Assembly: GCA_015178975.1 (NCBI GenBank)
Contig: WHVD01000261.1
Coordinates: 22,913 to 86,912, forward strand
DNA: 64,000 nucleotides
Source: Hysterangium stoloniferum
Lineage: Eukaryota > Basidiomycota > Agaricomycetes > Hysterangiales > Hysterangiaceae
Direction of reading: 5' to 3'
Under the pieces are notes generated by a model. The model had not been told where the DNA came from. It did not search any database and was given only the letters and a program-made list of their open reading frames with translations. Below are positions 31,985 to 60,498 of the stretch, in pieces; the first letter of the stretch is position 1, and each line of letters opens with the position of its first letter. The position numbers and the translations under genes were made by a program.

Positions 31985-32459
31985 CACTTCCTTGCCTTCT
32001 ATTGACATGGTTAGTCCCTGGAATATCCCATGGACCCAAGACTTACCTTTTGGGGCCTCTCCGGCTCCCCCTCGGACTTGGACTCGACCTCTACCACTTT
32101 GTGCTAAAAAGGTAGAATCAGTAACGTCAACTTTGTGGATCACTGGTACTTACTTTACCCATGGCAACCATGGCTCTCTCCACGGCTGCCTTGGCTTGCT
32201 CCATGGCAATCCACGCAGCCTCCTCCTCCTCCTTCTTCCTCTATTCCTTGGCCTCTTGCTCCGTGACAAGTGCCACCTGGTACTCTCTGTCCAACTCCTC
32301 CTCGGCCTCCTTGGCCTTCCTCTCAGCCTCCTCTTGTTGTCGGTGCTGCTCTTCCTACTGTGCCAAGCTTGGGGCAGTGGTTAGCAGAGCCCAATACAGA
32401 GCACTCGTGGAGGGTCTGGCAGTTGGCATTGGCTTGTGCAGTGTTGGTTTGGGACCCAT
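31985..32459 (-). pseudogene. Antisense gene of Gypsy-B, copy 3 (5' exons)
   Basis: The minus strand starts MGPKPTLHKPMPTARPST (ATG at 32459) with a charged helix (EEAERKAKEAEEELDREYQ) and a few stops. The exon ends GGGTAAA|GTAAGT near 32158. A 50-bp intron ends TTTTTAG, exon 2 encodes VVEVESKSEGEPERPQK, and a second intron GTAAGT...GGGACTAACC...CAATAG starts near 32055. The zinc-cluster exon is lost in the jump to LTR-B at 31984. Splice signals match copies 1 and 2. It is followed on the plus strand by the Gypsy-B purine tract at 32652. Confidence 0.7.
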
Positions 32460-35655: not shown

Positions 35656-35676
35656 CCCTAAACCCTAAACCCTAAA
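35656..35676 (+). repeat. Three CCCTAAA telomere-like units
   Basis: A perfect 21-bp run of CCCTAAA x3 lies exactly where the 5' LTR-B of Gypsy-B lacks its first bases. Confidence 0.7.
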
Positions 35677-36482
35677 GTGGAAATCCTGCCAGATTCCAGG
35701 CACTAACTTATACACACCCGTGCCTTATACGCACCCATTACCAGTTTACTGGAATTCCCACCGGACTCCATACATCAGACTTGTCTACATTCATCTTCAT
35801 TACGTTGTGTTTCAGTCACCAGAAAACCCACCGGACTCCATCTCTGTCTATTTCCAACCTCGTCCCACGCATCAGTCACCGGACCCCACTCAGTAAACCC
35901 ATCACCTCTCTAACCGAGCCCCATTCCTGTTTTAGTCAAATGACCTGTCACGATTCGGACTCCGCCCCCGCTCCATTTCCCATTATGGTTTATGATTTGT
36001 CACTATTCGGACTCCACTCCATTCCATCCCATTCCTAACACCAATTTGGTGTTTACTTTTCCCATTTTATATTTTGCTTGTTCCATTTCATCATTACTGG
36101 ATTTGGTATGACATTCACTCCATGGTCTATTTAAACTGGCAGATGTTGTACATACAATTCAGTCAGAAAATCAGCTTAGATTCCCCCCAGTAATCTAATA
36201 CATTTTCTGCTCTAAAACCCTACTTGAATCACACCGCTCACACTAGTCGGAGCCCACGGGCTCCGACGCATCTATCTCTCTCACCAATCTTGACTCACGA
36301 CCCACGACCCACGACCTACAACATCTCGACCCACGAACCCCACCCGGACTCCCTGGGATTCCCGTCCATCCGTCTGAAATTGGACAACACGATCTAGTGA
36401 GGTGCAGCCTCTAAGCTGAAGCCAAGTCCTACCAGATATCCTGCGGGTTTCTCCAGAAACCCGCCCTGTATGTATCCTAACA
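35677..36482 (+). repeat. Gypsy-B 5' LTR
   Basis: It follows the 3' LTR (46024-46834) from its GGAAATCC start through the GGTGCAGCCTCTAAGCTGAAGCC box (36401-36423) to ATGTATCCTAACA. The first 5-10 bases are replaced by telomere-like repeats. The following GTATTTTCTGAC is shared with the third copy at 61034 and is the likely primer site. Confidence 0.85.
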
Positions 36483-36518: not shown

Positions 36519-37473
36519 ATGCCACCAAGAAAGAAAGCGAATGCACAGGTATCATTACCTGGACCATCGACTCTTCATTCCCCGTTAACTCTGTATCCCA
36601 GCCAGACGCTTGCAAACCAGTCAGAACCCATGGAAGAAGCCCGTATCGAAGAAGCCCGTATCGAAGAAGTCCCGGAAAACCAGGATGAATCTGAGCACAA
36701 GGATGAATCTGTGGCCCCCGACAAGGGCAAAGGTGTTGAAAATCCTCTGTCTAGTCAATGACCGCACTTGGGGGATCCTACTTCTGAAATTTTAGCAGGT
36801 ACTATAGATAAATTTATGACACACCTGCTCGAAGAACAAAGAAAAAGGAACAAGAACCTCCACGATCAAAAGTCAATGCTCCGGAACCCTTCACAGGTTC
36901 CAACCCAAACAAACTCTCTACTTTTCTCATGCAATGTCACTTCAATTTCCACAATCGATCCGCTGCATTCTCCACGGACTCCCAAAAAGTCAACTACACA
37001 CTTTCATACTTGTCAGGATCCGCATTGAAATGGTTCAAACCGGCTTTTAGCGGGATTTCCGAGGAAGAGCTGCTTTGGCTCGAAGATTGGGCTGCTTTTG
37101 TTGAGGAGCTTGAAACCAACTTTGGCCCATATGACCTGACAGGAGAAGCCAAGAACAGTCTCACAAATCTTCGTATGAAGGACATGCAGCACATCACAGA
37201 CTACATTGTCCAATTCAATAATCTTGCAGCTCGTTGTCAGTGGGGTGATCCTGCTCTCTGCCACCAATTCTACGCTGGTCTGCCATCCCGCCTTAAAGAG
37301 GAAGTCTCGAAAGGAGAAGATGGCAAGCCAAAAACCCTGTCCCGCATGCGCCTCAAAGCTCAAAATGTGGACGCACACTATTGGGAACGTCATGCAGACA
37401 TTGCCCACGAGACCTCCGTGGACAAAGTGAACAAGTCCACGGCCAATAAAAACAACAACAACTCATCAACCAG
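36519..37473 (+). pseudogene. Gypsy-B gag, copy 1
   Basis: It starts MPPRKKANAQVSLPGPSTLH. A TGA at 36759-36761 follows NPLSSQ, and the frame then continues (HLGDPTSEILAGTIDKFMTH). One base is lost near 36842, shifting into the frame of the capsid-like gag core: LMQCHFNFHNRSAAFSTDSQ, SYLSGSALKWFKPAFSGISE, AFVEELETNFGPYD, FYAGLPSRLKEE. It is cut by the solo LTR-A after SSTS. The zinc-knuckle part present in copy 3 (62218-62260) is deleted on the other side of the LTR (near 38140). Confidence 0.85.
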
Positions 37474-38113
37474 TGTGAAGAGTCGTTAGATTCCTACCGC
37501 TCAATATACGAAGAATAGTGTTTATTCAACTACTATTAGAAAGTATTGACCGTTCAGTACAATACTGTAGATTGCTAGACTGACAGTACTAGCAAGGAGA
37601 CACGCTACACATCACAAGAGCAACTGTACAGTTGCTCTTGACGGCTAGAATGAGAGAATGAAGAGTTGACCTTTACGGTGCAACTCGTAGCTAAATGTAA
37701 ATAGATAATCAACGAGAAGCCGAATATCTGAAGTAAAGAGATAATAGCGCGAGTCGACTATAGTGTCGACGAGCGCAAAGACTTTAGAGTGGAACTCGAC
37801 CTTCGCGGTTCAAGTCCAAAGTATGTCAGGAGACTAGAGAACGCTACCCTTATAGGTAGCTTAGATGTTACCCTTGACACCTCTCGCTATTCGACGTCTG
37901 GGTCGTTTACGAGGTGGTGTCTGCTGGGTAAAAAGATGTCTGAGATTTAGCACCGAGAGCGCCCATAGATATACACAAGACTTCGAACTAAGAAATACGG
38001 GTATGCTCGAAAGATATAGAGAGTTAGGGAAAAATAGTAAGAATTAAATAATAAAATACTATAATATATGTATTATTCCACAGTCCAATCATGATATATG
38101 CATACCCTTCACA
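37474..38113 (-). repeat. Solo LTR-A inside Gypsy-B gag
   Basis: 640 bp, TGTGAAGAGTCGTTAG to ACCCTTCACA, duplication ACCAG at 37469-37473 and 38114-38118. The uninterrupted site is visible in the copy at about 62015-62030 (TCAACCAGCAACCAGAAC). The palindrome at 37615-37640 is perfect. Confidence 0.92.
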
Positions 38114-38783: not shown

Positions 38784-40225
38784 AAATTGATGAAGCAACT
38801 GGATGTTTTTCAACCTGGGTATCTGAATCTGAGCAAGCCGCTGATCTAGAAGGTGTCCTGGAGAAATATCATGACTTCACAGATGTTTTTAGCAAGCGGA
38901 AAGCTGACTGGCTTCCACCTCACAGAGAATATGACTTAAAGATCAATCTCGAAGATGGCGCCCAGCCACCCCTAGGACATATTTACCCACTCTCGTCCAC
39001 GGAACATTCCACAATCCACGATTTCCTGGATGAACATTTGTCCATAGGTTTTATCCGACCCTCAAAGTCTCCTTCTGGAGCACCTGTTCTGTTTGTCAGA
39101 AAAAAGGATGGATTCCTTTGACTATGTGTTGATTTTAGAGGATTCAATGCTGTCACCAAAAAGGATAAATATCCACTCCCACTTATATCTGATCTGCTTG
39201 ATGCTCCACGGAATGCCCGGATTTACACCAAAATAGATCTCAAACATGCCTATCATTTGGTCTGGATCACCGTGGGTGAAGAATGGAAACCCACTTTTAG
39301 AACCCACTATGGGGCCTTCGAGTGGTTGGTGATGCCCTTTGGACTCACCAATGCTCCGTCTGTTTTTCAGCATTTTATCAATGACATTTTCTCCAACATG
39401 CTTGATGTATGCATCATTGTTTACTTGGACAACATTCTTATCTACTCTGAGAATCCCGCAGAACATGACAAACAAGTCTGTGAAGTTCTCCAGAGACTCA
39501 GACAACATGGTTTATTCGCGAATGGTAAAAAATGTACTTTTGACACGGACTCCGCGGAATACCTGGGTTTCATCATGGGACCTGATGGACTCTGCATGGA
39601 TAAAACTAAAGTGCAAGTCATCAAAGATTGGCCTGAACCCCGAAAAGTTAAAGATATACAATCCTTCCTCGGCTTTGCCAATTTTTACAAACAGTTTATC
39701 TGTGGATATTCTGACATCACGGTACCCCTTACCCGTCTTACGCATAAGGATACTCCGTGGAATTTTAACGATAAGTGTCAAAAAGCTTTCAATCTTTTAA
39801 AAAATTCTTTTTCTTCAGCTCCTATTCTGTTGCATTGGAAACTGGACTTCCTGCTCATTGTTGAAATGGACACCTCAGATTATGTGCTTGGAGCCATTCT
39901 GTCTATCCAGGACTCCGACGGAGAAGTCCACCCCGTGGCTTTTCTGTCCTGGACTTTCACCGGAGCAGAGCTCAACTATGACATTCACGATAAGGAACTC
40001 CTGGCAATCTTTTCAGCTTTCAAAGCGTGGCGACACTATTTGGAAGGCTCGGGAACTCCTATTGACATTGTAACAGATCACAAAAACCTGGAATACTTTT
40101 CTACCACAAAACTTTTGACCCGCCAGCAGGCCCACTGGTCTGAATATCTATCTGCCTTCAACATGATTATCCGCTTTTGACCCGGCCATCTCAGTGGCAA
40201 ACCCGACACTCTAACTAGATGATGG
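38750..40225 (+). pseudogene. Gypsy-B reverse transcriptase and RNase H, copy 1
   Basis: Reverse transcriptase: [40 protein letters not shown], a TGA at 39119-39121, then [40 protein letters not shown] and [13 protein letters not shown]. The catalytic YLDD is YLDN here (AAC at 39431-39433; GAC in the copy near 63664). RNase H: LIVEMDTSDYVLGAILS, GAELNYDIHDKELLAIFSAF, IDIVTDHKNLEYF. Then NMIIRF, TGA, PGHLSGKPDTLTR and TGA before WDV, both at arginine positions. LTR-F cuts the frame after GACGT. Confidence 0.9.
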
Positions 40226-41463: not shown

Positions 41464-43085
41464 GATGTCTATCCTAAAGAGGGGAGCAACGACTATGCCA
41501 CGGTAAACCCACACAACCTGAAACCTATCTTCATGAATCAGCAACTTACTGCATCGGTGCGCACAACTTTCCTTGTCAATCCCATTGTCCATGGAATTAT
41601 CATTATGGATATCAAGAAGTTACATCAAGATATTCTATCAGCAATTCCACTAGACCCAATTACTACAGCTCACCTTGACAATCCCATGGACCCCGATCAA
41701 CCTCGGTGGTCTCTTGATCAGCATGGTTTCATTAGACTTGACGATTGAATCTATGTACCGGACTCCAACAGCCTCCACCTCAGGATTCTTCAATACAAAC
41801 ATGATCATCCACTCTCAGGATATTTTGGGTACAACAAAAATCTATCATTAATAACAAGAGAATACACTTGGCCCAGACTCCATGGATTCGTTAAGCACTA
41901 TTGCAAATCTTGGACTACTTGTTCCTGCTCGAAATCTCAGCGACACAAGCCATACAGCCTTTTGAAACCACTCCCGGTAATGGAACATCCATGGAATTCT
42001 ATCTCTATGGATTTCATTGAACACCTACTGGACTCCGAAGGCTTTTCTGCCATTCTAGTCATTGTTGACAGATTCTCAAAACAAGGTATATTCATCCCTA
42101 CATATGACACAATTATGTCCAGTTAGCGGAACTTTTCATTATCCATGTATTTTCCAAGCATGGAGTTCCATCCCACGTGACTTCCGATCAAGGATCAGAG
42201 TTTGTATCTCACTTCTTTAGATCCCTCCAGAAATCCTTGGACATGACATTACATTTCACGTCTGGACATCACCCAGAAGGCAACGGACAAACTGAACGCG
42301 TCAACCAGACATTGGAACAATATCTTCATGTATATTGCAACTACCAACAGGACAATTGGAAATCCTTGTTACCACTTGCAGAATTTGCTTACAACAATGC
42401 ACCCTCAGCCACTACTGGCGTTTCCCCATTCTTTGCAAATAAAGGATATAATCCAAATATTACAGCACATCCAGAATGAAATCTTACCTCTGCTCGCACT
42501 CAAGAGTTCACCATGGACCTCCACAAGCTCCACGAGGAACTCCGGACTGCAATTAAGTCTGCCCAAGAGCAATACCAACATTCAGCGGACAAACACCGGA
42601 TCCTGCCACCCAACTTCAAGATTGGCGACCATGTTTTTGTCAAAGCTCAATTCTTCCAGACTACCCGTCCATCAAAAAAGCTTGCTGAAAAATATTTAGG
42701 TCCATTTGAAATTATCGCACAAGTAGGTTCAGTCTCTTGGACCCTACGGCTTCTGGATAGCATGTGCGGGGTACACCCAGTATTTCATGTTTCTATGCTA
42801 GAACCTTGTACTGCTAACACTATCCTGGATCACGTGCAATCTCCGCCTTCTCCAGTCATTATTGATGGAGAACCCGAGTTTGAAATCTCTCAAATTTTAG
42901 ATTTGAAAATTGACAAGCATTGACGCACTTGTAAACTGCTTTACTTGGTCAAGTGGGCAGGTTATGAGGGCACCGATGAAGAAACTTCATGGATTTTGGC
43001 CACGGAACTTGGTAATGCCAGGGAAATCATTACTGACTTTCATACAGCTTACCCACTTAAACCTGGACCACTATCATCTCTCTGA
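41464..43085 (+). pseudogene. Gypsy-B integrase and chromodomain, copy 1
   Basis: After YPKEGSNDYATVNPHNLKPI comes the linker LHQDILSAIPLDPI. The zinc finger is around HDHPLSGYFGYNK ... KSWTTCSCSKSQ. The core is SISMDFIEHLLDSEGFSAIL, VTSDQGSEFVSHFF and SGHHPEGNGQTERVNQTLEQ (D, D, E present). FKIGDHVFVKAQFF and EKYLGPFEIIAQVGSVSWTL form the C-terminal module. A chromodomain ends the protein: FEISQILDLKID, then LLYLVKWAGYEGTDEETSWI. Stops at 41748, 42120, 42477 and 42921 and a few shifts inactivate it; three of the four stops are TGA. Confidence 0.9.
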
Positions 43086-44350
43086 CTGCACTCCGCAGAC
43101 CCCATGTTACATTCAGACTCATTTTCATTGTTCCCTGTTGCCCTATGTATGTCTCTCTTTGCTTTTACAGGTTCTGACATGTTCTTCAAGTCCTTAAGTG
43201 GTTTTCCCATGGACTTTGACTTTTATGTTTTTCACGCTTTACTTTTATATTCAAAAAAATTATTAAACTTTTATTCTATACTACTTTTCTCAGTCTACAT
43301 TCATGGGACTGTGTTTTTTCCCCACCTCCTCAGCCACCTCCTCAGGGAGCTCCTCGACCTCCACGGCAACCCCACCCTCATCCGACCTGGCCTCCTTGGA
43401 ACTTATGGCTTGTGGCTCCTGATATATATATCTGCCAAACTCCGCTAGGAACTTCCAAAATTCCGAGTGGAGCCCACAGAGCTCATTCACCACCACCACT
43501 TGCACGTTGTTGCTTCTTCTAAGCAACATGTTCTCCTCTATGCCCTCAGTGATCTGTCCCAGAACCTCATCCAAACCAGCAAATCTGTCTGACCCGCTGA
43601 TGACCTGCACCCCAGACCCTGTGGCCTGCTCGTGAACAAGTGAACACCTCGCCTTGAGGTGTGCACATTGGTAGCAGCCTGGACCCTGGCCAGACTTTCG
43701 ATTGCATTCAGTGTTCCAGTCATTACAACCAGAACATCGCGGGTCATTCCATGTGGGTAGGTGGACTGGCACCACCTTCCTTGCCTTTTGTTGATATGGT
43801 TAGTTCCACGGTATTTCCCATGGACCCGTTGCTTACCTTTTGGGGGCTCTCCGGCTCCCCCTCGGACTCGGACTCAACCTCTGTTGCTTTGCACTGAAAA
43901 TGACAAGTCAGTGAAAAAAAAAAAAACGATAAGTCAGTTTGGGACTTACTGTTATGTATTTTTAAAGGTTTTTCCTATTTTTCGCAATTTCCCCAAAACA
44001 AATTTTTAACAAAGGCTTCTAAATGTACTTATATCGCGATTATAAAAGGTGTACAATATTCTCTTAATTTATATTGAATTTATGCAATTTATTTTGCATT
44101 TTTATCTTATAAATTAAGGGAGCTACGAAATTTCTACTTTTTATTCTTTTTTAACTATATATCTTCAAACCGGCCACCTGGCGCCTATTACACAACGCAC
44201 AGGAATATTCGTGACCGGTTGTCACAACAAGTGACCGTCGTCACAATGAGTGACTGTCGTCACAACGCACGACAGTCACAAGGGCGTGTGACAGTCACAA
44301 AAGGTGCACGATAGTCACAAGGCAGGACAGGTGTCACACGCGCACTAGCG

Positions 44351-44440
44351 TGGGAATATTATGTCATACATTATGTCATTTGGGAATATTAAGTCATATA
44401 TTATGTCATCTGGGAATATTATGTCATATATTATGTCATC
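44351..44440 (+). repeat. Three 30-bp tandem units in LTR-E
   Basis: TGGGAATATTATGTCATA and 12 more bases, three times, with 1-2 changes each. They lie about 110 bp upstream of the LTR-E TATA box, a usual place for repeated activator sites in LTRs. Confidence 0.8.
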
Positions 44441-44551
44441 ATATATGCTACAGTAGAGAATGGCGGAAATGTCTAAAACATTCCAAGTAAAATAGCTAAA
44501 ATAGGATAGAAATAAAGTTCAATATGTCTCTAAATGTCTCACATCTCAGTG

Positions 44552-44565
44552 TATATAAGGAGCTC
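44552..44565 (+). promoter_or_regulatory. Candidate core promoter of LTR-E, copy 1
   Basis: TATATAAGGAGCTC is followed by TGCTCCAGCC; the same block stands at 53424-53437 in the second copy. A conserved TATA element at one third of the LTR fits the U3 promoter and sets the plus orientation of this LTR. Confidence 0.55.
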
Positions 44566-46010
44566 TGCTCCAGCCATGAAATATAACCAATTTTATCAAC
44601 CCATTTACACCACATCTGTGTGTCACTGCAGCAAGCAGGCTACTCCACCCCAATCTGGGCAGTTGGACATCTAATTCCACCTCTATCAGAGCTGTTGGAA
44701 ACCCTTGCCACCTCTATCAGAGTTGTTGGCCCAATCAGATCCCTTGTCACCTCAATCTGAGTTGTTGACTGATCTTTGTTCACCTTGTCACCTCAATCTG
44801 AGTTGTTGACTTATTTGTTCCCCCTTGCCACCTCTTAATTGAGTAGCTGGCTTTATTACTTTTTCTAACTTCTATTTAAGTTGTTGGAATCCATTGCCAC
44901 CTCGGTTAGAGTTGTTGGCTATCAACCAAGTAATAAATAAATTGTTTGTTTGATTGTTTGAAATTAGAATATAATTCTAATTTCTCCTGGTTTGGCTTAT
45001 AGTTAAATACTGAGAATATTCTTGCAGAATCATTAAGACTACATTAAGATCCTGATAAGTTAGTATCACAGTAGACCTTGTAGGTTAGTGTAAATAAAGC
45101 ATATATTAGCCAAATAGTGTTTTATTCTATATCTAATCTTTTGACCTGTTTATAAATATTTTTACTCTTTGATAAATAGTATAAAATATATATAAACTAG
45201 CTAGCATTGAAGTTAAATCTAGCTTTGGAATCAGTAAATTGTTATTCTTATTTTAGTAGTTGTTATCACAGAAAAAGAACAAGCTTGCACAAGCAGCTCT
45301 CAAAACCTTCTTTGCGAAGTAGGGTGCATATATTCAAGTAAACTCTTGACTTCAGGGGTTCTAAGTCTATTTAGGCTGCCACTGATTAATATCAAATACT
45401 TAAATTATTTTACCTTGTAGTGAATTGAGTCTTTGCACACTTTGATAGAGCATTGGACTCCTTTTTCCAGAAAATAATATTAAAATAAGGCTAATACATT
45501 ACACTTACCTTTCCCACAACAATCGTGGCTCTGTCTGCAGCCACTTGCACGTTCTCCGTGGCTACCCATGCAGCCTCCTCCTCATCTCTCTTCCTCTGCC
45601 TCTCAGCCTCTTCCTCCACGGCCAATGCCGCCTGGTACTCCCTGTCTAAGGCCTCCTCAGCCTCTCTGGCCACCTTCTCTGCTTCTTCGCAAAGTTGGCA
45701 CTGCTCTTCTCGCCACACCAATAGTTGGGCCACACTCCAAGGCGTCCAATACGGAGTGCCCGTGGAGGGCCTGGCAGTTGGCATTGCCCATCTTGGTGTT
45801 GGCTTTGGTCCCATTTTGTCGATGATGGGGGTAATAAAGAAGAAGAATTTCTATTTTTTCAAATTTATATATAGGCTCGTCACATTTGAACCTTACCTTC
45901 CAGATCACATGACTCCTTGACACATACGTGTAACCGACATGGCTTTTGACACATGTACGTAGCTGACAAGAACCTTATCACCGTCTAGAGCCTCTTTGGG
46001 ACTTCGGCAT

Positions 46011-46023
46011 AAAGGGAGGGTAC
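46011..46023 (+). other. Gypsy-B polypurine tract, copy 1
   Basis: AAAGGGAGGGTAC abuts the 3' LTR. The same tract stands at 32652-32663. Confidence 0.75.
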
Positions 46024-46834
46024 TGTTACGACCAGAAATCCCGCCGGACTCCAGGCACTAACTTATACACACCCACGCCATATACACACCCATTTCCAGT
46101 TTACCGCAATTCCCACCGGACTCCGTACATCACACTCATCTACGGTCATTTTCATTACATTGTGTTTCAGTCACCGGAAAACCCACCGGACTCCGTCTCT
46201 GTCTATTTCCAACCTCATCCCACACATCAGTCACCAGACCCCACTCAGTAAACCCGTCACCTCTCTAACCGAGCCCTGTTACCGTTTTAGTCAAATGACC
46301 TGTCACAATTCAGACTCCGCTCCCACTCCATTTCCCGTTATGGTTTATGATTTGTCACTATTCAGACTCTGCTCTGTTCCGTCCCGTTCCTAACACCAGG
46401 TGTTTACTTTTCCCGTTTTATATTTTGCTCATTCCATTTCATCATTACTGGATTTGGTATGACATTCACTCCATGGTCTATTTAAACTGGCAGATGTTGT
46501 ACATACAATCCAGTCAGAAAATCAGCTTAGATTCCCCCCAGTAATCTAATACATTTTCTGCTCTAAAACCCTACTTGAATCACACCGCTCACACTAGTCG
46601 GAGCCCACGGGCTCCGACACATCTATCTCTCTCACCAATCTTGACTCATGACCCACGACCTCCGACCTACAACATCTTGACCCACAAACCCCACCCGGAC
46701 TCCCCGGGATTCCCATCCATCCGTCTGAGATTGGACAACACGATCTAGCAAGGGTGCAGCCTATAAGCTGAAGCCAAGTCCTACCAGATATCCCCCGGGT
46801 TTCTCTGGAAACCTGCCCTGTACATATCCTAACA
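46024..46834 (+). repeat. Gypsy-B 3' LTR, copy 1
   Basis: 811 bp, TGTTACGACCAGAAATCC to CATATCCTAACA. It includes repeats with CACCGGA cores (46090-46260), TTTGGTATGACATTCAC (46455), TCAGAAAATCAGCTTAGATT (46518) and the GGTGCAGCCTATAAGCTGAA box (46754-46773). Confidence 0.9.
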
Positions 46835-47309: not shown

Positions 47310-48240
47310 TTAAATATGGCTATGTTTTTGCCCATTAAACTCTTTTTGGAGCTCCACCAGCTCCTCAGACACCCTGGGCTCCTCCCCAGGATCCTCAGAA
47401 CTCCCACCCTGGGACTCCTTATATACATATCCTCCATATTTCATCAAGAACTCCCAGAACTCCCCATGGAGTCCCCGGAGACTGTCCACTATAGTCCCTT
47501 GCACTCCATTGCTCTCTTAAAGCAACCAGCTCTGGGCCTCTATGCCCACTGCTATCTGTCCCAAAGTTTCCTCCAAGGTCCCAGGCCTTTCTGCCAAGCC
47601 ATCTGCTTCCCATGCCACAGGCCCTGTGGGTCATGAACCAGTGAGCACCTCACTTTGAGGTGTGCACATGGCCAACAGCCCGGCCCCTGTCCAGACTTCC
47701 AGTAGCATTCTGCATTGTGGTCATTGCACCCAGTGCACTGTGGGTTGTTTTTTGACTCCAGATGTACTGGAGCCATTTCTTTGACTTCTGTTGTTTTGGT
47801 CAGTCTCAGACATTCCTGTGGACCTGCCACTTACCTTTTGTGGGCTCTCAGCCTCCCCCTCAGACTTGGACTCTACTTCTACTGCTGTGTGCTAGGAAGT
47901 GACAGTCAGTGAAGTCAGAAAAAGAGAAAGAACTTAAATATACCTTGCCCATGGCCCTCTCTGCAGCTGCTCTGGCATGCTATGTGGCAACCTACACTGC
48001 CTCCTCTTCTTTTTTCTTCTTTTCCTCTTCAGCCTCCTTCTTGGGGACCATCACCACCCAGTACTCTCACTCAAGCTCCTTTTCCTCCTCTCTCACCTTT
48101 GTCTCATCCTCCTCCCATCACGACCACTGTTCTTCACACTGCTCAAGTATTTGAGCAGCAGTGAGGGCACCCCAGTAACTGGCCCCCATAGATGACCTGG
48201 CCATTGCATTTGGTCTTCAAGGTGTGGGCTTTGGACCCAT
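47310..48240 (-). pseudogene. Antisense spliced gene of Gypsy-B, copy 2
   Basis: The ATG at 48240 gives MGPKPTP and a decayed coiled-coil exon with several stops. The exon ends GGGCAAG|GTATAT near 47943. Intron 1 ends CACTGACTGTCACTTCCTAG. Exon 2 gives TAVEVESKSEGEAESPQK, and intron 2 is GTAAGTGG...GACTGACC...ACAACAG (about 47 bp). Exon 3 has CTGCNDHNAEC ... CWPCAHLKVRC, the same six cysteines and spacing as copy 1, after a one-base deletion relative to it. The C-terminal LHGEFWEFLMKYGGYVYKE resembles LHSEFWKFLAEFGRYIYQE of copy 1. It sits in the same place after the chromodomain. Confidence 0.72.
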
Positions 48241-48327: not shown

Positions 48328-49142
48328 TGTTAGGGTACATACATGGCGGGTTTCCGGAGAAACCCGTGGAATATCCAGTAGGACTTGGCTTCAGCTTATA
48401 GTCTGTGCCCTCATGAGATCGTGTTGTCCAATTTCAGACAGGTGGATGGGAATCCCAGGGAGTCCGGGCAGGGTTCATGGGTCGAGGGGTCATAGGTCGG
48501 AGGTCGTGGGTCGAGAGGTCATGAGTCGAGATAAATAAGAGAGATAGATGCACCAGAGCCTGTGGGCTCTGACTAGCGTGAGTGGTGTAATTTAAGTAGG
48601 AGTTTAGAGTGGAAAATGTATTAGATTACTGGGGGGAATCTAAGCTGATTTTCTGACTGGATTGTTTGTACAACATCTGCCAGACTAAATAGACCGTGGA
48701 ATGAATGACATACCAAATCCAGTAATAATGAAACGAAACTAGCAAAACATAAAATGAGAATAGTAAACACAAAATTTGGTGTTAGGAATGGGACGGAACA
48801 GAGCAGAGTCTGAATCATGACAAATCATAAACTATAATGGGAAATGGAGTGGGAGTAGAGTCTGAATCGTGACAGGTCATTTGACTAAAATGGGAATGGG
48901 GCTCTGTGATGGGTTTTCCGAGCAGGGTCCAGTGACTGATGTGTGGGACGAGGTCGGACATAGACAGGGGCAGAGTCCAGTGGGTTTTCTGGTGACTGAA
49001 AGACAACATAACAAAGTCGAACATAGACAAGTCTGACGTATGGAGTCTGGCAGGAAATCTGGTAAATTGACAATGGGTGCATATAGGGTGTGGGTGCATA
49101 TAAGTTAGTGCCCGGAGTCCGGTGGGATTTCCGGTCGTAGCA
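48328..49142 (-). repeat. Solo LTR-B in the 3' region of Gypsy-B copy 2
   Basis: 815 bp, TGTTAGGGTACATAC to CCGGTCGTAGCA on the plus strand, with the duplication ACCTT at 48323-48327 and 49143-49147. The interrupted sequence GAACCTTACCTTCCAGATCAC is intact near 45889 and 32530. The box is at 48383-48409 reversed. Confidence 0.92.
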
Positions 49143-52374: not shown

Positions 52375-52762
52375 TTAAATGTACTTATATTGCGACGATA
52401 AAATTGTACAATATTTCCTTGATATATCCTGAATTTCTACAATTTATCTTGTATTTTTATCTTGTAAATTGAGCAAGTTATTGAATTTCTACTTTTAATT
52501 CTTTTTTGATTAATATGTCGGCAACTCAGCACCTATTCACAACGCGCGAGTAATCATGTGATATTCACATGACATTTCAAACTCCAATGCCGACAAAACG
52601 TGATGTGAAATAATTGTGAATAATCAAGCCAATATATATATTTATATTATTATAATAAAATATTATATTTATAACTAACTAAAAATAATTATAATTATAA
52701 TTATAATATAAAGCCGGCCACCTGTGTTTATTACACGGTGCGCGGGAAACTCGTCACAACAA

Positions 52763-53060
52763 GTGACAGCTGTCACAAGGGCGCACGACAGTCACAGAGG
52801 CGCACACCGGTCACAGAGGTGCGTAACAGTCACAGAGGCGCGCAATGGTCACAGAGGCACGCAACAGTCACAAAGGCGCGCAACGGTCACAAAGGCGTGC
52901 AACGGTCACAAAGGCGCGCAATGGTCACAAAGGCGCGCAATGGTCACAAAGGCGCGCAATGGTCACAAAGGCACGCAATGGTCACAAAGGCGCGCAACGG
53001 TCACAAAGGCACACAACAGTCACAAAGGCACGCAATGGTCACAAAGGCGCGTAACCATCA
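52763..53060 (+). repeat. 19-bp minisatellite, about 15 units
   Basis: Unit CGCAATGGTCACAAAGGCG with few changes. As 19 is not a multiple of three, three units give 57 bp and a 19-residue protein period (e.g. ARNGHKGAQWSQRRAMVTK), so all three plus frames stay open; the ORFs here are by-products. In the first LTR-E copy the same place holds only irregular GTCAC words. Confidence 0.92.
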
Positions 53061-53317
53061 CAACGTGTGACAGTCACAAGATGTGAAGGGTGTCATACAT
53101 GCACACAGGCGTGAGAGCATTATGTCATCATATATGCTACTACAGCAAAAACCAGAAATCTCTGGAACATTCCAGTAGCTTCCAATGGAACATTAGTTAA
53201 TAGATACAAATAGTAGATAGAATATTGTAGAATATTCTATAAAGTTCTACAATGTTCCATTATGCCAAGAATATTCTATAGTGTCTTAGAAGTAGTTAAA
53301 ACTTTCCACAATGCTCT

Positions 53318-53437: not shown

Positions 53438-54594
53438 AGCTCCAGCCTTGAATCAATATCAATCAATCTTTACTACATTTTATCAGCCACATCAGTGTGC
53501 CACTGCAGCAAGCCGTTTATTCCACCCCTAGTTGGGCTGTTGAACAAATAAATACAAATACTTAGTCACCTCTAGTTGAGCTGCTGACCTAAGTTATCTC
53601 AGGATCCCTTTGTCACCTCTTGTTGAGCTTCTGACAATAATCCTACCCCCTGGTCACTCTTCTGACCAATCAGGATTCCCTGCCACCTCTTGTTGAGCTT
53701 CTGGTATTAATCCTTTATACTATAGTCACCTCTTAATTGAGTATTGATTATTAGTTTTCTTTACATTGTTATTTGTAGTTTAAAACTTCAGTCACCTCTT
53801 GTTGAGTAATTTGACTGATTATCACATTGCAAATAATCCTTGTTACATTTCTTGTTATTTGTAATCTAAAACTTCAGTCACCTCTTGTTGAGTAATTTGA
53901 CTGATTATTACATTACAAATAATACCTTTTCCATTGTTCATTTATTGTGAATTAGTAAAGCATATTCACATAAACAAATACTGAGAATATTCTTGCAGAA
54001 TCCTTAAGACTACATTAAGATCCTGATAAGTTAGTATCACAGTAGACCCTGTAGGTTAGTGTAAATAAAGCATATATTAGCCAAATAGTGTTTTATTCTA
54101 TATCTAATCTTTTGACCTGTTTATAAATATTTTTACTGTTTGATAAATAGTATAAAATATATATAAACTAGCTAGTATTGAAGTTAAATCTAGCTTCGGA
54201 ATCAGTAAATTGTTATTCATATTTTAGTAGTGTTTTTACAGAAAAAGAACAAGCTTGCACAAGCAGCTCTCAAAGCCTTCTTTGTGAAGTAGGGTGCATA
54301 TATTCAAGTAAACTCTTGACTTCAGGGGTTCTAAGTCTATTTAGGCTGCCACTGATTAATATCAAATACTTAAATTATTTTACCCTGCTGTGAATTGAGT
54401 ATTTGCACATTTTGATAGAGCATTGGACTCCTTTTTCGGAAAATAGTATTAAAGTAAGGCTAATACATTACAATGACTCTTAAGTATTTCTCAGCACTTC
54501 TAAGTAGTTCTGAGCATTTCTAAGTATTTACATATCACAATGACTGTTAGAAGTTAGAAAAGTTAGAAACAATCAATCAAAATACATTAAACCT

Positions 54595-59463: not shown

Positions 59464-60498
59464 TCCACAACTAATGGGAGGTGGAGGCATAGCTGCAGGC
59501 TGTAAAATGGCTGGAGGTGGGGGAATAACTGGAAGTGGGACTAGCTGTAGTTGCTGTTGCTGTTGTGGAGCTGTATTTTCAGGTAGATGGTGAAGCTGTG
59601 GTGGTGCCCACTGCGAAATAGGTGCTTGTTGTTGTTGTGGAGCTGGATTTCCAGGTGGATGGTGAAGCTGTGGTGGTGCCCACTGCAACATAGGTTGTTG
59701 TTGTTGGTGTTGTGGAGCTGGATGTCCAGGTGGATGGTAATGCTGTGGTGGTTGCCACTGCAAAATAGGTGGTTGTTGTTGCTGTGGATGGTAATGCTGT
59801 GGTGGTTCCCACTGTAAAATAGGTGGTTGTTGCTGCTGTGGATGGTGATACTGTAGCGGTGCAGCTACATTTCCTGGTTGATGACCATGCTGTGGATGTG
59901 GTGCTGACTGTAAAATTTGTGGCTGCAGTTGAGCAGGTTGGTCTAATGGTGGTAAAGCAGCATACTGAGCATACAGAGCAGCTACTCCAGCAGAGCCAAC
60001 TGCAGGCTGGACAGCTTCATCTGCAGGTGCACCCTGTTGTATATAAAGTGGTTGCTGAAGTTGAGCAGCTACATTGCCTTATATATGACCTGGTGCCTGT
60101 GGCTGAACAGGTGCATTTGCTGGTTGATGACCCTGCTGGATATGTGGTGCTAACTGCAAAATTGGTTGCTGCAATTGAGCAGCTGGATTTCTCCATCCAC
60201 AACCTTGCCTAAGAGGTTGTAATGGTGGCAAATCTTCATACTGCCTACACAAAAGAGCCACTGCATCAGAGCCAACTATAGCAGAGCCACCTGCAGTAGA
60301 GCCACTTGCAGTAGAGCCACTTGCAGCAGAGCCACTTGCAGCAGAGCCACTTGCAGTAGAGCCACCTGGCTGAGCAACCAAAAATGGATTATCAGATTGA
60401 CCTCTACCAACAGGAAGATGGAGATCTCATAATGGTTGAAGAGGTGGTATATTAGAATTCACAGCTAAACACCGATGACGATCAGATGGAGATGTCAT
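59464..60498 (-). pseudogene. Helitron N-terminal low-complexity region
   Basis: From MTSPSDRHRCLAVNSNIPPL, with TGA in LQPL*DLHLP (near 60427-60429), then six repeats of the type TASGS/AASGS (60285-60365). At least five Gln/Pro repeats follow, such as PILQWAPPQLHHPPGNPAPQ and PQHYHPPGHPAPQ, in two frames (60200-59470), with a TAA near 60078. The repeats vary in length, and a one-base shift near 59465 separates them from the Helitron core. Such N-termini are not part of the canonical enzyme. Confidence 0.7.

Follow-up and report, generated by a model that had tools for sequence, protein, structure and literature searches.

Accessory genes that run antisense between pol and the 3' long terminal repeat (LTR) are already known as a kind in LTR retrotransposons of plants and of Botrytis. 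The available excerpts of two papers describe antisense additional open reading frames (ORFs) at this place in maize Grande (gene23), rice RIRE2, Silene Retand (ORF4) and PvRetro13, and call the function of such genes unknown (PMC7264820, PMC11963269). In Retand elements these ORFs encode antisense TRP28 proteins, which are predicted to bind DNA (PMC11963269). Among fungi, Boty of Botrytis cinerea and Sclerotinia sclerotiorum is an LTR element with an antisense ORF at the same place (PMC7264820), and Tcn1-like chromoviruses carry an "add. ORF" of unknown function (PMC2864245). Human T-cell leukemia virus type 1 (HTLV-1) encodes HBZ, an antisense, spliced and nuclear product that combines a basic leucine zipper (bZIP) with an activation domain, is transcribed from the 3' LTR and lowers expression from the 5' LTR; antisense spliced transcripts are likewise described for APH-2, APH-3 and APH-4 (PMC10186651). 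Families of LTR elements in bdelloid rotifers keep an extra ORF3 of the DEDDy, GDSL, CC, TM or env type (PMC5408684). Here, we describe a three-exon antisense gene at the 3' end of a Ty3/Gypsy chromovirus of the basidiomycete Hysterangium stoloniferum, located in a 64-kb stretch of contig C181 (the window) and followed through the searched genome (111 Mb, 554 contigs). Our results demonstrate that the gene belongs to the element, and that its reading frame is under purifying selection and was kept while the family amplified.

The gene lies on the minus strand, tail to tail with pol, between the pol end at 43085 and the 3' LTR at 46024 (Table 1). An earlier note on this DNA had placed a spliced antisense gene between the pol stop and the purine tract, and the exact exon and site positions, together with an anatomy shared among copies, bear this out. 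In window copy 1, exons 1, 2 and 3 are all open and mutually in phase, and the spacing claimed for exon 3, C-x2-C-x6-C-x9-C-x2-C-x6-C, is present in the translation. The note had also given both introns a length of about 50 bp, which is right for intron 2 (52 nucleotides, nt) but not for intron 1 of window copy 1, which measures 1615 nt because of a 1554-bp TG...CA insertion. This insertion sits at the donor, where its GTAAG flanks leave one GTAAGT at each edge. A partial copy of it, 96-98% identical, lies at 53976-54437, and the insertion probably represents the solo LTR of a different element. The intron 2 acceptor reads CAGAAG in most copies; because window copy 1 has CAAAAG instead, its acceptor is shifted 3 nt onward. 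Copy 3 was said to be without exon 3, and this is so: it holds exons 1 and 2 and intron 2, and is cut off by LTR sequence soon after the exon 3 start. Upstream of the gene, the leader has a mean identity of 0.917 across 21 copies.

Table 1. Features of the antisense gene and its host element, in window coordinates.
Feature	Positions	Strand	Details or basis
Exon 1, Glu/Ala/Arg-rich	45509..45814	-	exact site location; ATG 45814
Intron 1, enlarged in window copy 1	43894..45508	-	1615 nt; donor 1 at 45508, GTAAGT; acceptor CAG
Exon 2, acidic, 57 nt	43837..43893	-	exact site location; start 43893
Intron 2, 52 nt	43785..43836	-	donor 2 at 43836; acceptor CAAAAG in window copy 1
Exon 3: basic start, six-cysteine motif, conserved C-terminal part, stop	43290..43784	-	translation, alignment; start 43784, stop end 43290
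Leader with TATA-like box CCTATATATAAATTTG	45815..46010	-	196 bp; first base of box 45875
TG...CA insertion inside intron 1	43950..45503	.	1554 bp; GTAAG at both flanks; not gene sequence
Copy 2 of antisense gene, older, decayed	47310..48240	-	ATG 48240, donor 47943, exon 2 47891, donor 47834, exon 3 47787
Copy 3 of antisense gene	31985..32459	-	ATG 32459, donor 32153, exon 2 32103, donor 32046, exon 3 start 31998
5' LTR of host element	35669..36482	+	repeat families D2, D4, D7, D16; alignment with 3' LTR
gag fragment	36812..37489	+	Pfam Retrotrans_gag 3.4e-13, Ty3_capsid 6.8e-9
Reverse transcriptase and RNase H	39122..40180	+	Pfam RVT_1 2.2e-29, RT_RNaseH 1.4e-31
Integrase, in pieces	41749..42479	+	Pfam Integrase_H2C2 1.1e-11 (above cut-off); rve 1.3e-4 (below curated cut-off)
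pol C-terminal chromodomain, in pieces in window copy	42900..43085	+	via older copy's frame and L070
Polypurine tract AAAGGGAGGG	46011..46020	+	located in sequence
3' LTR (TGTTACG...CTAACA)	46024..46834	+	repeat families, LTR alignment, ends located

The splice signals were compared in two alignments of 25 and 30 rows, with six rows common to both. The first combines window copies 1 and 3 with 23 of 30 gene loci, those that have the gene in one stretch; seven loci, of which one is the window copy, were omitted. The second holds 24 further copies, mostly chosen as stop-free in exon 3, and the six shared rows. In the first and second alignments respectively, the ATG is kept in 25/25 and 30/30 rows, the GT of donor 1 in 23/25 and 30/30, the AG of acceptor 1 in 24/25 and 29/30, and the GT of donor 2 in 24/25 and 29/30; a branch-like CTRAY occurs in 22/25 and 28/30 rows for intron 1 and in 25/25 and 30/30 for intron 2. 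Donors, acceptors and branch-like sites are thus shared among the copies, and intron 1 measures 47-66 nt in the aligned rows of the first set and 35-64 nt in those of the second. The introns are also retained across the genome: a 20-mer spanning exon 2 and donor 2 has 434 matches when one mismatch is allowed, whereas its reversed control has none, and the spliced exon 2-3 junction has 0 genome matches with either acceptor (up to three mismatches in one search, up to one in another). This retention is consistent with the element being passed on through its sense genomic RNA, where introns of antisense direction cannot be removed by splicing. Two gene models of H. stoloniferum, P0002 and P0003, join exons 1 and 2 at the same sites and, with the conserved splice signals, suggest that the antisense messenger RNA is spliced. 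Intronless copies were also sought with an exon 1-2 pattern, and this candidate was rejected: of its 23 matches, the one inspected on C168 is unrelated, and many others are regularly spaced like an unrelated tandem repeat. The matches on C29, C346, C533 and C548 have such regular spacing (multiples of 126 bp at C29), which points to a long repetitive gene that has nothing to do with the element.

Selection on the antisense frame was measured with omega_tv, a dN/dS-type measure computed over random disjoint pairs of copies in three distance bins, and restricted to transversions because CpG decay dominates transitions. All rows used (65 for exon 3, 54 for exon 1 and 45 for pol) span 70% or more of the reference, whose own row was excluded; since the same rows return in several pairings, the spread among pairings does not amount to a confidence interval. 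In the antisense frame, omega_tv was 0.35, 0.30 and 0.40 for exon 3, and 0.39, 0.37 and 0.35 for exon 1; pol gave 0.33 and 0.18 in the two bins with pairs. Values of 0.30-0.40, in a test of the kind that the earlier note had proposed, are those of purifying selection. This conclusion stands because omega_tv stays low when the rows from L069 onward, most of them selected for being free of stops, are removed: 0.35, 0.40 and 0.43 for exon 3 (43 rows), 0.40, 0.40 and 0.32 for exon 1 (31 rows), and 0.34 and 0.18 for pol (42 rows). The next lowest values belong to complementary frame -1, which shares the wobble (third) position (0.47-0.61; likewise in pol, 0.49-0.80) and has stops in 65/65 exon 3 rows. 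The other four frames give 1.07-2.11 in exon 3 and 1.00-3.42 in exon 1; among them, frame -0 of exon 3 is open in 12/22 young rows, yet its omega_tv is 1.47-1.86. Stop counts in exon 3 agree among loci not chosen for intactness: in the 30 W1-type rows the antisense frame averages 0.77 stops per copy and the other five frames 2.43-10.27, and in the 13 W2-type rows the corresponding figures are 1.08 and 2.38-5.69. Young copies, mostly picked as stop-free, make up 22 of the 65 exon 3 rows, and their 22/22 lack of stops proves nothing; that count, made by aligned columns, also misses the frameshifts of two young copies, L091 and L092. Across 21 copies, the two introns show transversion divergences of 0.053 and 0.076; the exons lie at 0.020-0.038, the leader at 0.027 and pol at 0.015.

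The genome-wide collection of copies, which the earlier note had advised, shows that the anatomy of the gene and its link to pol are shared. In a protein search for exon 3, the best 150 of 1152 first-look candidates were scored, and 107/150 of these best-scoring places are stop-free, a ranking that favours intact frames; a DNA search found at least 40 young exon 3 places at 97-100% identity. Among 30 gene loci chosen by gene similarity, one of them the window copy, the end of pol lies beyond the antisense stop in 29/30, at a distance of 130-220 bp in 28 of the 29 (L006 is further away), and LTR sequence is directly upstream of the leader in 22/30. Starting from pol instead, 36 of the best 40 matches to young pol have exon 3 at 219-261 bp on the opposite strand, and two more, on C52 (a contig end) and C268, hold part of it, so that 38/40 have all or part of exon 3; for C32, its expected place lies past the contig start, and C212 carries the deletion described below. 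By its position, its direction, its presence in most copies and its conservation, the gene is an antisense additional ORF between pol and the 3' LTR.

Young copies encode a predicted protein of 294 residues, which runs from a charged N-terminus through an acidic segment, a basic stretch at the exon 2-3 junction and the six-cysteine motif to a conserved C-terminal part (the acidic segment and basic stretch were assigned by eye). Also read by eye, the exon 1 product is likely a coiled coil. The cysteine codons are not randomly substituted among copies: four cysteines are invariant and two are kept in 63/65 rows, so that each is present in 63-65 of 65. Pfam Zn_clus (PF00172) matched 13 of 56 cysteine-region pieces at E<=0.01, in an older subfamily (the 56 are 55 distinct pieces from 57/65 rows plus the window piece, eight gap- or stop-rich rows being dropped). 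The best of these matches (5.3e-5) is above the cut-off, and a 51-residue piece from window copy 2 has this value, with 23.7 bits against a cut-off of 21; among cysteine-fixed shuffles, 0/10 matched at E<=0.01 (best 0.19). A genome-wide PF00172 scan listed 42 places, none recognised by position, by eye, as one of the antisense gene copies listed. Against solved structures, the cysteine profile had no match at E<=10, and exon 3 alone had four weak matches, the best to Talin-1 at 0.066. NCBIfam returned low-scoring matches of the charged exon 1 part alone (best 17.5 bits against a cut-off of 831), and no bZIP stands among the Pfam matches listed for the protein. Searches of 5.8 billion proteins gave three matches in all, each in H. 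stoloniferum, and no homologue beyond this species; one of the three, P0001, agrees with the searched genome at 99% over residues 65-201. As this kind of search needs shared exact words, and one run scored 7996 candidates, the absence elsewhere is weak evidence. No source gene for a capture event was identified, protein relatives being found in H. stoloniferum alone.

Based on our results, we propose that the antisense gene would be transcribed toward pol from its own promoter within the element. The TATA-like box, which lies inside the element and is kept in 23/25 and 29/30 rows of the two alignments, is the evidence that points to expression from the element's 3' end. The introns would persist since reverse transcription copies the sense RNA, in which they lie the wrong way round for splicing. 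The protein may enter the nucleus, dimerise and bind zinc and nucleic acid or chromatin, and it would regulate the expression of its own element in the manner of HBZ on its provirus. Our favoured explanation, with a probability of roughly one half, is thus that the antisense accessory gene encodes an HBZ-like nuclear regulator of its own element. A more specific proposition, that a fungal chromovirus independently evolved the whole HBZ arrangement, with a spliced antisense nuclear factor that has its own promoter and a six-cysteine zinc cluster, tunes sense transcription and was kept through amplification, is tentative and held with distinctly less confidence.

Several of our results weigh against a regulator of this type. 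Among young copies, L097 on C212 (about 642150-642950) has lost most of the antisense gene to a deletion of about 1.09 kb, and L091 and L092 have frameshifts in exon 3. (L097 is about 98.5% identical to another young copy, L070, on both sides of its gap.) The gene is less constrained than pol and its exons diverge faster. In exon 1, moreover, the antisense frame does not stand out by its stop counts, as it is stop-free in 18/23 young rows against 21/23 for the complementary frame. In the Zn2Cys6 binuclear cluster, six cysteines follow a set spacing and basic residues between the second and third cysteine contact DNA; the first half of the motif in young copies, CSGCNDRNTEC, is without such a basic run. 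The longer constructs also fall under the Zn_clus cut-off, with 12.1 bits for the exon 3 ORF of the window and 8 bits for the full-length young protein. Of the Zn2Cys6-like character claimed for exon 3, the cysteines and their spacing have therefore held, whereas PF00172 membership is borderline, and we describe a six-cysteine motif of Zn2Cys6 spacing rather than a proven member. The single-sequence model of the protein was unusable, with a mean predicted local distance difference test (pLDDT) score of 40.9. In the U3 part of the LTR, CGG-type repeats were not significant (CGG-N3-CCG occurs 3 times against 0.23 expected in one young LTR, 1 of 63 combinations), and neither were repeated 6-mers in four LTRs, which were reached by 32, 189, 156 and 29 of 300 shuffles. 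Finally, our results do not separate regulation from other nuclear roles.

Such a role is the strongest alternative, although we consider it less likely: the antisense protein would serve another nuclear step in cis, such as nuclear entry of the pre-integration complex, the selection of integration sites jointly with the chromodomain, or the countering of host silencing, and not LTR transcription. Purifying selection shows that the protein matters to successful copies and suits a product that acts on the copy encoding it; the basic stretch and the six cysteines agree with a nuclear protein that binds nucleic acid, and a role like that of retroviral accessory proteins has been raised for such ORFs (PMC7264820, in the excerpt available); yet we found no feature that points to any one of these steps, and the element already encodes an integrase and a chromodomain. 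Far less probable is that the antisense RNA, and not the protein, is active, by pairing with the sense RNA and limiting copy number through small RNAs or interference. Any antisense transcript would be complementary to the sense RNA, and the idea is discussed in the same excerpt, but the codon-position pattern shows selection on the protein, and variation is higher in the exons than in the 196-bp leader, a difference that RNA pairing by itself leaves unexplained. That the open frames arose by chance or as the shadow of a coding sense strand was rejected through the codon-position test and the exon 3 stop counts. In its favour, the strand is GC-rich, L070 can be read through exon 3 in the sense direction for 214 residues, and exon 1 frequently lacks stops in further frames. 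Yet it is the antisense frame that shows the third-position bias, complementary frame -1 is interrupted by stops in every one of the 65 exon 3 rows, frame -0 has the high omega_tv given above, and the shared splice signals are on the antisense strand.

The host element, with its gag, reverse transcriptase, RNase H, integrase and chromodomain, is a Ty3/Gypsy chromovirus of the chromodomain type. In the window copy, pol is broken into pieces; the frame of the older copy at 46729-47127 matches Pfam Chromo (2.3e-6), and in L070 the frame is open through the chromodomain up to the pol stop. The 5' LTR is missing its first bases and adjoins three telomere-like repeats (CCCTAAA) at 35656-35676; perhaps a truncated end was joined to a telomere seed, and no further CCCTAAA runs were found in the window or in the 72 loci examined. 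Many exon 3 matches and young copies lie near contig starts (e.g. C1, C103, C16, C25), mostly in one orientation. An association of young copies with telomeres was considered and set aside: the four contig ends inspected start inside pol, without telomere repeat, and are probably assembly breaks in young repeats. Inverted LTR sequences at 46400-46653 and 48517-48770 flank the older copy 2, which makes this region nested and rearranged. Elsewhere in the window, a 19-bp unit forms a tandem array at 52729-53089 (14 overlapping 114-nt copies in register), and a unit of about 72 bp is repeated at 59555-59827, possibly in a coding frame.

If a nuclear regulator is indeed encoded, the element would be an LTR retrotransposon with a self-regulator selected through the amplification of its family, a fungal parallel to HBZ of HTLV that would allow retrotransposon self-regulation to be tested. 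The family offers hundreds of copies, young intact ones among them, and a clear selection signal in the antisense frame. Moreover, the two introns mark antisense RNA unambiguously, and spliced junction reads would report transcription of the accessory gene directly, which is harder with intronless genes.

Compared with known systems, the Hysterangium gene shares with the antisense ORFs of plants, as far as the excerpts describe them, its place between pol and the 3' LTR, its direction, its presence in most copies and a predicted nuclear or DNA-binding role. The plant ORFs differ in their hosts, Retand belongs to a non-chromovirus lineage, and the TRP28 domain is absent among the matches for the Hysterangium gene. 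The Hysterangium gene has two introns, whereas none is described for plant ORFs in the available part of PMC7264820 and the word intron is absent from that of PMC11963269. Boty is an ascomycete element, and the likeness to it is one of description. The same holds for the Tcn1-like elements, which are also chromodomain Gypsy elements with an additional ORF, described in the excerpt without its orientation or sequence. In bdelloid rotifers an extra ORF is likewise kept, but it is of other types, and the excerpt mentions no antisense gene. Fungal Zn2Cys6 factors (PF00172) have in common with the predicted protein the six cysteines, a compatible spacing and the borderline Pfam match in the older subfamily; the protein is unlike them in its full-length score under the curated cut-off and in the lack of a basic run between the second and third cysteine. 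In open-licence papers, consulted mostly at listing level, we recognised no report of this gene, nor of any basidiomycete element that carries a spliced antisense gene, and the terms antisense, additional ORF, extra ORF, zinc, opposite and reverse orientation are absent from a paper on Laccaria transposable elements (PMC3411680). The nearest functional parallel is HBZ, which is also antisense, spliced (as predicted for the Hysterangium gene), of coiled-coil type (as the exon 1 product probably is) and nuclear (as the Hysterangium protein may be). According to the excerpt, HBZ is a bZIP protein with a 3' LTR promoter, and no six-cysteine motif is mentioned; the Hysterangium gene has six cysteines and a TATA-like box inside the element, and the resemblance is one of layout only, with no homology shown. 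As far as our searches show, what is new within this literature is the combination of two antisense introns, a six-cysteine protein, a basidiomycete chromovirus as host and a codon-level test of selection, in a gene whose arrangement otherwise recalls those of plants, Botrytis and HTLV-1.

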